This document shows, piece after piece, positions 45,022-48,300 of a DNA stretch of 48,300 bases. The first letter of the stretch is position 1, and each line of letters starts with the position of its first letter. The notes beneath the pieces are model-generated. The model worked only from the letters and a program-made list of their open reading frames with translations, had not been told where the DNA came from and did not search any database. Where the stretch lies: positions 1-48,300 of the forward strand of contig NZ_JAPNXS010000016.1 of assembly GCF_030397575.1 (NCBI RefSeq), given 5' to 3'. The position numbers and the translations under genes are program-made. This stretch comes from Psychromonas sp. 14N.309.X.WAT.B.A12. GTDB lineage: Bacteria; Pseudomonadota; Gammaproteobacteria; Enterobacterales; Psychromonadaceae.

Positions 45022-47349
45022 TTAAGTTGATTTTTGTAATTTAAGTTCTGATGGTGCTACCGGTGTATTGTCCGCAGGCACACGTATTGATTCTGTCCAT
45101 GCTTCTGGCATATCTAAAGCACCAACAGCTTTTACCATACACCTAATACTCTTACCAACATCATCAGATGTAATTTCATACTCATTACTCGCGGTATAAG
45201 TTAATGGATAAGCATTTGCAAACCAGTAGTAGCGTATATCTGTAATACCCTCTACATTTGCCTGGCAAGTAATCGTACTTCCCTCCGTTTGCTCTCCCGT
45301 AATAGTAGGCCTGCTAGTAAAGATGTCTGGGAGTTCCATAATGTTGCTGGTTTTTTGCAGTACTTCTATAGAATCAATAGTAAAGTCTTCACGATCTGAG
45401 CTTGGTTCTCCATCCCATGAATTAAGAGCATAATCTAATTGTAGATCTAGTCTTTCTAGGTAGGTTGGAGGAGTTTCAACTCTGCCTACTTCAACCCATT
45501 TATCATTACCATCACTGTCTTTTATAGTCACGTTGATATAGGTCATATCATCATCTATCACAAACTCCCAGGTATGGTACTCACCATCCCAAAACTTCAT
45601 ACCACCTTCAATTTTGCTTTTGGCTTCAGTCAATTGACCGCTATATGCTTTATAACTTGTATAACTTTCAGCATTTTTAGCAAAGATATTATCTACAGCA
45701 GCATAGTGATAATGGGAAGCGAGTCCATTTAGCCAAGCGCCATTTTTTCCATCAAACTCAAACCAGTCAACTTCAATTCTATTGGCCGTTCGCCAGAATA
45801 GAAAATCGGGATCATACGACCAAAAAGCAGGAAACAATCCGCCAGCTAAGTCAGCTTGTGCAACTTCAGGAAACATACTGCGAATACGAAATATTTTAGG
45901 CCCTTTCCAGGTATACCCATAACCAAGATCATTAACACTATAAAATGCAGCTGCTTTCCATCTATCATTTACTTTCAATAAAGAAAGCGACTGCTTTTGC
46001 TCAGACTCATCGTATTCATAAACATTTGTCGTATCACTAGGAGCAATTAATGTCGCTGAAGAACCAACTGCAGTATTAAAACCAGGAGCAGACCAAAGGT
46101 CTGATTCACCACTATAACTAGCTTTTACACGGTCATTTCTAAAATCATCATAAAAAACACGCTCAAATCCCTCTACTTCAACTGGAGAACCACCTCCATT
46201 CACTTTGACGTCAGTGCTATTAATACTTGTTCCCCATTCACTCCATTGATCATTGTCGTGAACATAACGATAAGGAAAATCTTCTTGATCCATCACGGGA
46301 TTACTCGTTTTGTAAACATGGTCATTAGGTAAGATAATGCCATTATCACTGCTATCTAGCCTGTATGCAGCCCAGCCAGTCATTTTTCTTACCATTGCTT
46401 CAGTCGGTTCAGTTAAACCAAAAGCTAATGTATCGTAGGCCCAAGCCATATTGCCATCACTATCGTCCCCTATATAAGACGAAGTATCATTTCCAATTTC
46501 AGCATTAGCATAACGTTCAGGCTGAGGTGATTCAGTAGAAAGGTTAACGCCATTTACAGAAGCAAACATTTGACCATAACGAATACCAGTCACTACAACA
46601 TTCCAAGTTTCTCCATCAGCAACTACTGCTGTTTTGGTTGTCATTATTCGTTTATCCAGGCCATTTTCATTACGCCCAACGAACTGAATATTTAACCCTG
46701 TGCTTTTGTTGTACCAAATTTTAGGAGAAGATTTGTTTGAAGCATTACCTCGATTAATATCAACCATCACAGTGGTATCATCATCACCTGAATCGGCATC
46801 TATACGAAAAGTAAAAATAGTCCAACGATAAGCCCATCTAGCTTCTCGTTGACCACTCATTGTTAAAAATTGACCAGAATTTTCTTTAAACTCAATACCA
46901 TTATTATTAGAAAATTTTTCAGGTGCTAAACTAGATGTTGATTGAGTTGCATTACGAATGCTATTACCTCTAGCGTCATGGGTACTTACTTTTCCAATAT
47001 CCACATCATCTTGAAAGTACGCCGTCATAATCCACTCAGGGAAAAGATTTAACGCCCAAGTCACTTTCTCCTCATTCTCAGCAACATCATCTTTTGCAAT
47101 TCGCATTGATAAAGGTAAACGTCCCTCAGTTTGCTCTAAAATTGAAACAGCACCGTCACCATCTAAATCATAATTAGCAATTAATTCCGGATACTTTACT
47201 TGTAAATAATCTAATAAAGCTTTCCGTTCTTGATCATCATATAACCCATTATTATCTGTATCAAAATTCACATTCGTATCAGCAAAACTAAATGCAGATA
47301 ATATTAAATAAAAACTAAGAGTTAATTTGATGAGAATGTTCATTGTCAT
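45022..47349 (-). CDS. Secreted EF-hand, GH16-like, Ig-like polysaccharide hydrolase
   Basis: A 775-aa secreted protein. Signal peptide 1-23 (ends SFA). Two canonical EF-hand calcium loops follow at once: D30-E41 (DTDNNGLYDDQE) and D61-E72 (DLDGDGAVSILE). Residues about 110-330 look like a concanavalin/LamG-type beta domain (GQMFASVNGVNLS). A GH16-like region lies at about 390-660 with the catalytic motif EVDWFE (E526 nucleophile, D528, E531 acid/base). The tail (about 675-760) resembles a bacterial Ig-like domain with a Cys pair (ITCQ, IRCM). Probable role: cleavage of a beta-linked algal or exopolysaccharide; substrate unknown. Start could also be the ATG at 47343. Monocistronic. Confidence 0.75.
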   Translation of the reverse strand: MTMNILIKLTLSFYLILSAFSFADTNVNFDTDNNGLYDDQERKALLDYLQVKYPELIANYDLDGDGAVSILEQTEGRLPLSMRIAKDDVAENEEKVTWALNLFPEWIMTAYFQDDVDIGKVSTHDARGNSIRNATQSTSSLAPEKFSNNNGIEFKENSGQFLTMSGQREARWAYRWTIFTFRIDADSGDDDTTVMVDINRGNASNKSSPKIWYNKSTGLNIQFVGRNENGLDKRIMTTKTAVVADGETWNVVVTGIRYGQMFASVNGVNLSTESPQPERYANAEIGNDTSSYIGDDSDGNMAWAYDTLAFGLTEPTEAMVRKMTGWAAYRLDSSDNGIILPNDHVYKTSNPVMDQEDFPYRYVHDNDQWSEWGTSINSTDVKVNGGGSPVEVEGFERVFYDDFRNDRVKASYSGESDLWSAPGFNTAVGSSATLIAPSDTTNVYEYDESEQKQSLSLLKVNDRWKAAAFYSVNDLGYGYTWKGPKIFRIRSMFPEVAQADLAGGLFPAFWSYDPDFLFWRTANRIEVDWFEFDGKNGAWLNGLASHYHYAAVDNIFAKNAESYTSYKAYSGQLTEAKSKIEGGMKFWDGEYHTWEFVIDDDMTYINVTIKDSDGNDKWVEVGRVETPPTYLERLDLQLDYALNSWDGEPSSDREDFTIDSIEVLQKTSNIMELPDIFTSRPTITGEQTEGSTITCQANVEGITDIRYYWFANAYPLTYTASNEYEITSDDVGKSIRCMVKAVGALDMPEAWTESIRVPADNTPVAPSELKLQKST

Positions 47350-47870
47350 ATTTCCAATATAAAGGATTTAATATAAAAGCTAATCAATACAATATTTATA
47401 AACACAGACTAGTACCTATTACTTTTAATATCTACTCATTTAGTAATGTAAAATATACAAATAAGCTTAAATATAAAATCAACATCTACTAAATATTTGT
47501 AAAACCATGTAGTTAATAACTTAAATAATAGAAAAACATATTTAAAGTTTTTAGGAAATTAGCGATGATAAAAAAGTAACAGTAGCGATTACTTAGAGTG
47601 GATACTAGATAGTTCAATGAAACGATAGACTAGCATTATAAGTAGGTAATTCGACAAGCCACTTTTTATAGCCATGAATAGTATCAAGCATACATATTAT
47701 GGGCAGACTCTTTAAATTAAGGGCTACCTAATGTCATGGTCGTATGCTCTCTACAAATCATTTTTTAATAAGACTGCCTGAGTACCTCTAAATACAAGTA
47801 TTAATAACAATCAATGAAGTAAATAAAACTGAAACGTATTTTATTAATTGCTAGGTAGGTTTTTAGATAT
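47350..47870. other. AT-rich gene-free region upstream of the hydrolase
   Basis: About 520 bp of very AT-rich sequence with only very short ORFs. It must contain the promoter of the GH16-like gene, but no clear operator or mobile-element end was recognised. Confidence 0.5.
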
Positions 47871-47897
47871 AAAAAAACTGTCGATGTTAATCAACAG
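47871..47897 (-). terminator. Intrinsic terminator at the end of the left repeat unit
   Basis: On the minus strand CTGT-GAT and ATC-ACAG pair around one mismatch, followed by a T7 run. It is a diverged copy of the hairpin at 48121. Confidence 0.7.
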
Positions 47898-47910
47898 GAT
47901 TCGTTTAATG

Positions 47911-48300
47911 AGGCGCTTGACGATGAAAAGTCGTCACAGCGCTTCTCTGCTCGTGGGCCATCGCTGTCGCGGATCCACCAGGGCACGCCGAGCTTAGCCC
48001 ACTCATAAACTGATACTGGCATATCATTCGCCCCTAGCTATCACACATAAGGTTGGCCACTACGTGGCGCTTATTTATCCCATGCTCAAGTCGGCATAAA
48101 CCAACAGCCAACAACGAAAAAATCCCTGCTGACATAGTCAACAGGGATTGTTCGAATTAGGCGCTTGGCGATGGAAAGTCGTCGCGATACTCGCCCAACT
48201 ATCACACATAAGGTTGGCCACTACGTGGCGCTTATTTATCCCATGCTCAAGTCGGCATAAACCAACAGCCAACAACGAAAAAATCCCTGCTGACATAGTC
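47911..48300 (-). repeat. Tandem structured repeat, possibly 5S-rRNA-derived or a new ncRNA
   Basis: A 102-bp segment at 48038-48139 recurs without change at 48199-48300, a 161-bp period cut by the window end. The 3' part of each minus-strand unit is also repeated (47911-47935 against 48159-48183, few changes). The left unit carries about 90 extra bases (roughly 47937-48030). On the minus strand each unit can form a three-way junction: GTTGG/CCAAC closing, ATGC/GCAT and CCAC/GTGG arms (48052-48105 and 48213-48266). Each ends in CATCG(C/T)CAAGCGCC plus a terminator. That end and scattered blocks resemble 5S rRNA in order. The region is clearly GC-richer than its flank. Confidence 0.7.
48115..48149 (-). 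terminator. Intrinsic terminator between repeat units
   Basis: AATCCCTG/CAGGGATT (8 bp) plus TGAC/GTCA inside one mismatch, loop ATA, then T6 on the minus strand. The same hairpin begins again at 48282 and is cut by the window end. It resembles terminators at the 3' end of rRNA operons. Confidence 0.82.

Follow-up and report, generated by a model that had tools for sequence, protein, structure and literature searches.

The window analyzed here, i.e. the whole stretch of 48,300 nt from Psychromonas sp. 14N.309.X.WAT.B.A12, is the entire contig C8, and its last base is position 48300. At the contig end is an island (positions 47871–48300) with a G+C content of 48.8%, compared with 26.1% in the adjacent positions 47350–47870; this agrees with the earlier note, which described a GC-rich sequence in an AT-rich flank. 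An open reading frame of 775 aa (positions 45022–47349, minus strand) adjoins the island and displays no Pfam match at E ≤ 0.001. The island contains the exact 102 bp repeat that had been reported for it: positions 48038–48139 and 48199–48300 are identical letter for letter at a spacing of 161, and the repeat register extends to 114 bp at 96% identity. The second copy is truncated because position 48300 is the contig end. Fold z-scores of the repeat region are −3.96 and −4.39. The three-way junction that was proposed for each unit is however absent from the minimum-energy folds. Homologues support instead a stem, P1, around one hairpin, followed by the hairpins of a module.

Table 1. Features of the island at the end of contig C8. 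R1 and R2 are covariance models of the unit and of the module, respectively.
Feature	Position	Strand	Evidence
3′ half of a terminator with T-run, cut by the contig end	48276–48300	−	C3 ends with identical letters
Core of unit 2: inverted 5S-end arm, hairpin h (48217–48229), 5S-like arm, truncated module	48168–48258	−	R1, 66.2 bits
Copy of the 5S rRNA 3′ end	48160–48173	−	14/14 identical to the true 5S end in C41
Intrinsic terminator of unit 2 with T-run	48116–48149	−	Terminator scans
Core of unit 1: inverted arm, hairpin h (48056–48068), 5S-like arm, module hairpin m	48005–48097	−	R1, 70 bits
REP-like module, hairpins m and n	47980–48037	−	R2, 45.3 bits, E = 4.8e-11
Second, degenerate module	47928–47979	−	Weak R2 match, 12.3 bits, E = 0.058
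Degenerate copy of the 5S rRNA 3′ end	47912–47925	−	13/14 identical
Distal terminator of different sequence, weaker stem, T-run	47871–47897	−	First scan; dropped by stricter scan

Along the direction of transcription a unit begins with a terminator and an inverted arm that resembles the 5S 3′ end in reverse complement. Hairpin h and a 5S-like arm come next, then one REP-like module or two, and finally a copy of the 5S end, after which the next terminator follows. The R1 scores of the two units in Table 1 are high by construction because the window is among the 42 training rows of this model. The window is absent from the rows of R2, so the module score is independent of training.

The region matches five other contigs of the same genome (C41, C3, C11, C39 and C2), in each case at most 35 bp from the contig end. 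C41 passes straight from the matching region into a 5S rRNA gene, of which it contains the 3′ half. The identity of the window's 5S-end copy (48173–48160) with C41 continues for 111 nt through the terminator, i.e. 97 nt past the 14 nt end. The five contig-end matches and the passage of C41 into 5S indicate that the contigs break at rRNA operons and that the island is an rrn 3′ flank with its sense on the minus strand. It is thus very probable that the repeat forms the end of an rRNA operon. For C8 itself we infer that the 5S gene is located just beyond position 48300, since the next gene lies past the contig end.

A position behind 5S genes is general. Six complete genomes have 79 R1 matches at E ≤ 0.01, and for 76 of these a 5S gene is located on the same strand no more than 2 kb upstream. 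This count omits G019, which has no R1 match at E ≤ 0.01, and the fragmented genome that contains the window, where four of five such matches are in contig-end rrn flanks and one is elsewhere. All 12 R1 matches in the genomes without a training row (G310, G346 and G108) are placed in this way. The number of 5S genes with at least one unit is 7 of 11 in G006, 9 of 11 in G011, 8 of 10 in G022, 6 of 14 in G310, 4 of 9 in G346 and 1 of 9 in G108, and a unit-bearing 5S gene in these six genomes is followed by one to eight R1 matches. Since many 5S genes are without units and three of the 24 genomes of the genus display no R1 match, the arrays are non-essential.

Other variations are found in these 5S regions. 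C4 has a stretch read as a 23S end followed by two 5S genes and a tRNA-Thr. An rrn variant with tRNA-Thr(GGT) and a second 5S gene in its 3′ part is present at L010, L077, L157, L160 and L175 (Psychromonas and genus g6). By eye, 5S copies vary in the outer stem (helix I) on both strands together, i.e. GCTTGGCG/CGCCAAGC, CTGATAAT/ATTATCAG and GTCTAGTAA/TTGCTAGAC; these variants come from L010 (G000:C4), L077 (G006) and L124 (P. antarctica). Broken 5S-like copies that are split by other hairpin sequences are located behind the true 5S at L078 (G006) and L087–L089 (G022).

In reverse complement, the inverted arm resembles the 5S end of its own host. It reaches p < 0.01 in 19 of 21 flanks from eight genomes (the 19 counted by eye), with p values of 0.022 and 0.045 in two flanks of G022; L091 and L092, where no 5S end was found by pattern, are omitted from this test. 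In the present genome, for the arm of C41 with the true 5S, p is 0.008. The window's own inverted arm gave a weak result (28 of 500 shuffles as good) when it was compared previously with a typed 5S sequence. In nine tests of the arm against 5S, forward matches reached the 5% level in two, while in the reverse orientation none of 500 shuffles was as good in seven. Of 33 downstream 5S-end copies, 32 have their best fit to the 5S end of their host, although only five of the 33 are from genomes with a differing 5S end (all five fit their own) and the others share a common end. Unit similarity is 0.787 within genomes (155 pairs) and 0.642 between genomes (706 pairs).

The entire unit does not appear to be a degenerate 5S gene. 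With its 5S-end copy the unit spacer aligns to 5S in such a way that 5 of 1000 shuffles are as good, but without this copy the alignment does not exceed that of shuffles (242 of 1000). For positions 47936–48030 on the plus strand, one among six pieces tried, the value is 12 of 1000. An origin from tRNA was also rejected; there is no tRNA in the window, and a tRNA-Arg is found farther along C41. Rfam models show no match in the window at gathering score, and at relaxed E-values they show four matches only, all far under the cut-offs.

Compensatory changes in homologues, on which the earlier note had made its reading depend, are found in many helices of the units and modules. In the unit alignment (42 of 46 units) 91.1% of the cells are paired and 118 differ on both sides, compared with 36.7 in shuffles. 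Hairpins h and m hold nearly all of these changes. Support for stem P1 is weaker because its changes are mostly one-sided or break the stem in some rows (82.7% and 88.5% paired). The module alignment (36 of 44 modules) has 61 cells changed on both sides and its shuffles have 19.7; the GAGC/GCTC pairing is uninformative here because it is invariant. The loops are kept while the stems change. C-GNA-G loops are seen in 34 of the 42 rows; 41 rows have C/T-GNNA-G, and only four of these are GNRA. Loops of these types are very stable in DNA. Compensated stems can, even without selection, arise and persist through template switching in DNA (PMC8794818); in yeast, template switching of this kind was observed solely at high transcription (PMC3820800). 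The compensation counts are therefore no proof of selection on RNA.

The two unlike terminators that had been claimed for the minus strand are present, at 48149–48121 (13 pairs, six of them G-C) and 47897–47878 (8 pairs, three G-C), the distal one being weak; a stricter scan retained only the one at 48149. Positions 46500–48300 contain five terminator-like sites on both strands, where shuffles average 1.2. A simple scan of 38 flanks, each at most 800 nt long, found 61 terminators on the sense strand and 4 on the antisense strand (0.2 in shuffles). Three of these flanks are without a sense-strand terminator. None of the seven promoter-like sites from a sigma-70-consensus scan is in 47871–48300. 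As the units are also behind 5S genes, any unit RNA would arise by read-through from the rrn operon. The suggestion that the units are repeated small RNA genes is thus supported as regards the structured units, the minus-strand terminators and the compensatory changes; separate genes are not supported. By analogy with the E. coli counterpart between the rrn terminators T1 and T2, which gives a small RNA (PMC8144298), formation of a small RNA from the units is possible.

The module is not confined to rRNA operons. With R2, a model of 36 modules, at least 25 copies are found in this genome and from at least 21 to at least 69 in five other genomes of the genus. A short module pattern is present in 18 of 24 genomes of the genus and in none of 75 others of the order. 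R2 matches occur at 6 of 9 loci of small RAYT-like Y1 transposases and at 1 of 21 other Y1_Tnp loci, the two classes having been drawn post hoc by profile span and frame length and two of the nine loci overlapping. In the present genome, modules flank both sides of a tandem pair of 175 aa RAYT-like genes (G000:C2:130074–131882). The best NCBIfam match of both proteins is REP_Tyr_transpos, with 58.7 and 62.1 bits where the cut-off is 80. A match to a transposon end had been named as evidence against the small RNA suggestion. This is seen in part, as the unit's module also adjoins RAYT-like transposase genes and the contig breaks inside the repeat.

Modules are also found within other dispersed elements, and two of eight such loci hold an RF01731 (TwoAYGGAY) match above the cut-off. 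TwoAYGGAY RNAs at L107 (G014:C146) and L110 occur with and without a REP-like module in one hairpin; at L107 one copy lacks the module that is present in two sister copies. In the tandemly repeated gene spacer at L173 (G006:C1:461400–462200) the module is in one copy and absent from its sisters.

A DNA search found matches in 22 of 60 genomes, the present one included, and all are from the one genus Psychromonas. The R1 model displays matches in 27 of 394 genomes of the order: 21 of the 24 of Psychromonas, five of genus g6 and one of genus g20. The order-wide search scored 10 candidates per genome, and 150 were scored for the R1 and R2 genome counts; thus these match counts are lower bounds. 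Judged from its 5S end, g6 is probably Shewanella. The same plan is found in named records of Shewanella surugensis and an uncultured Shewanella, among 13 matching stretches of which seven are from Psychromonas and two from Shewanella; the four others (Acidimicrobiia twice, Magnetococcales and Paenibacillus) were left out. The g20 matches are weak (E = 1.6e-4 and 0.004). At two loci of this third genus (L166 and L167, G042) the plan is also present behind 5S, with another hairpin h and another long insert. Among the matches listed in the open-licence literature, none was seen to describe such arrays for Psychromonas or Shewanella. The available text of the P. ingrahamii genome paper contains neither "5S rRNA" nor "terminator", and has "rRNA operon" in its reference list only (PMC2405808).

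The array most likely functions in the serial termination and processing of rRNA transcripts, a function that we consider probable. The transcript would exit the 5S gene and meet the first terminator. Polymerases that read through would next transcribe a spacer rich in hairpins, come to the 5S 3′-end copy that closes it and then reach another terminator, so that the array would complete termination of rRNA transcription. By analogy with E. coli, the 5S-end copies may serve as RNase E sites at which read-through RNA is trimmed. Units may have multiplied and become homogenized via recombination among rrn operons, and REP modules may have been inserted into the spacers. Several points count against this reading: the strong compensation in the stems exceeds the needs of termination alone, the distal terminator of the window is weak, some 5S genes are without units, and the 5S-end comparisons are mostly between genomes with one common end.

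The main rival, which appears unlikely but deserves the most weight, is that the units serve as genes for functional small RNAs of the RrA/RrB/RrF type, where read-through of leaky terminators gives an RNA that is cut at the 5S-end copies and whose amount reports the rate of rRNA synthesis. The plan is that of E. coli rrnB, whose product is seen on Northern blots, and the period of 161 may be set beside a stated spacing of 150 bp in E. coli (PMC8144298). Compensated hairpins with kept loops also fit such an RNA. However the E. coli spacer is not clearly homologous, and the spacers diverge strongly between genera. GGA motifs, which would fit binding of CsrA, are not enriched in 14 flanks (142 compared with 155.4 ± 8.9 in shuffles), and titration of CsrA by these motifs was rejected. 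A broader proposal, speculative and also improbable, is that marine Gammaproteobacteria bear serial small RNA dispensers behind their rRNA operons. Leaky terminators would yield graded structured RNAs per transcript, tied to growth rate, from units made of copied and inverted 5S ends and hairpins spread by RAYT, which concerted evolution would keep in step with the host 5S. Ranked below these, and doubtful, is a neutral or selfish origin, i.e. that everything past the first terminator is jobless debris of rrn recombination, template-switch copying and RAYT-driven REP insertion. The dispersal of the module, its position beside RAYT-like genes, the RNA at L107 and the gene spacer at L173 that exist with and without it, the wide variation in unit number and the ability of template switching to make and keep compensated stems are all consistent with this. 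It is more difficult to reconcile with sense-strand terminators that are kept through several units, with 5S-end copies that track the host 5S and with the recurrence of the plan in three genera.

Three further explanations are far less probable. Separate small RNA genes with a promoter each would fit the terminator that ends each unit; this is very improbable, as the units are behind 5S genes and positions 47871–48300 hold no promoter-like site by the sigma-70 consensus. Equally remote are BIME-like DNA elements, as putative binding sites for gyrase or further DNA proteins downstream of a highly transcribed operon. REP-like modules, palindromes and the DNA-stable loops are in their favor, but terminators and 5S-end copies are foreign to BIMEs. 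Least probable of all is an assembly artefact, in which the second copy is a mis-joined repeat end. The contig does end inside the repeat, and C3 ends with the same letters; however the sequence that separates the two copies is unlike the other copies in the genome, and multi-unit arrays are present in single-contig genomes. A terminator and processing array remains the preferred explanation. The natural arrays, with one to eight units behind a 5S gene and a presence in several genera, can be compared as a series, for which the termination, processing and small RNA ideas make differing predictions. The arrays also reveal a transposase-linked module that is built into the ends of rRNA operons.

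Related to known systems, the unit has in common with 5S rRNA (RF00001) the 3′ end, once direct and once inverted, but differs in that it displays no RF00001 match. The module resembles REP elements, which likewise are short two-hairpin modules that are dispersed, are found beside RAYT-like genes and show compensated stem changes. REPs carry the end tag GTAG (PMC3733652). Most modules of the rrn arrays have GTAG ahead of them, there solely within the 5S-like arm; the tag is absent from the transposase-linked modules inspected. Unlike RAYT proper, the proteins linked to the module fall under the NCBIfam RAYT cut-off.

The closest comparison is with E. coli, where rrnA, rrnB and rrnD have dual terminators with a tRNA-linked repeat (TLR) between them, and where the 3′ end of the TLR repeats 18 bp of the 5S end (PMC8144298). 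Read-through of T1 gives RrA, RrB and RrF, and the 5S-end copies were proposed as RNase E sites; the same source, in its available text, reports homologues in Enterobacteriales only and terms the significance of the dual terminators unclear and puzzling (PMC8144298). E. coli shares the plan found here: behind 5S, two terminators are separated by a spacer with many hairpins, the last part of which copies the 5S 3′ end. Occurrences of the 5S end in the E. coli record are 168 bp apart. The TLR features are also seen in the units. These are located behind an rRNA operon (directly in C41 and for the 76 matches above, presumably in C8). A TLR 3′ end has 18–19 bp identical to the upstream RNA gene, and the end of unit 2 is identical to C41 and that of unit 1 at 13 of 14 positions. 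Terminators are on either side, with the distal one of the window weak. Unlike E. coli, the arrays of Psychromonas and Shewanella reach eight units behind one 5S gene and contain REP-like modules. The inverted 5S arm is not found in E. coli (349 of 1000 shuffles as good). Membership in the RrB family was examined in reverse only, by applying R1 and R2 to E. coli rrnB. R1 gave 7.9 bits (E = 0.052) at the right place and R2 nothing convincing. Since the spacer is not clearly homologous and the inverted arm is missing in E. coli, yet the plan is the same, the units are best regarded not as members of the RrB family but as a variant of the TLR and dual-terminator kind.
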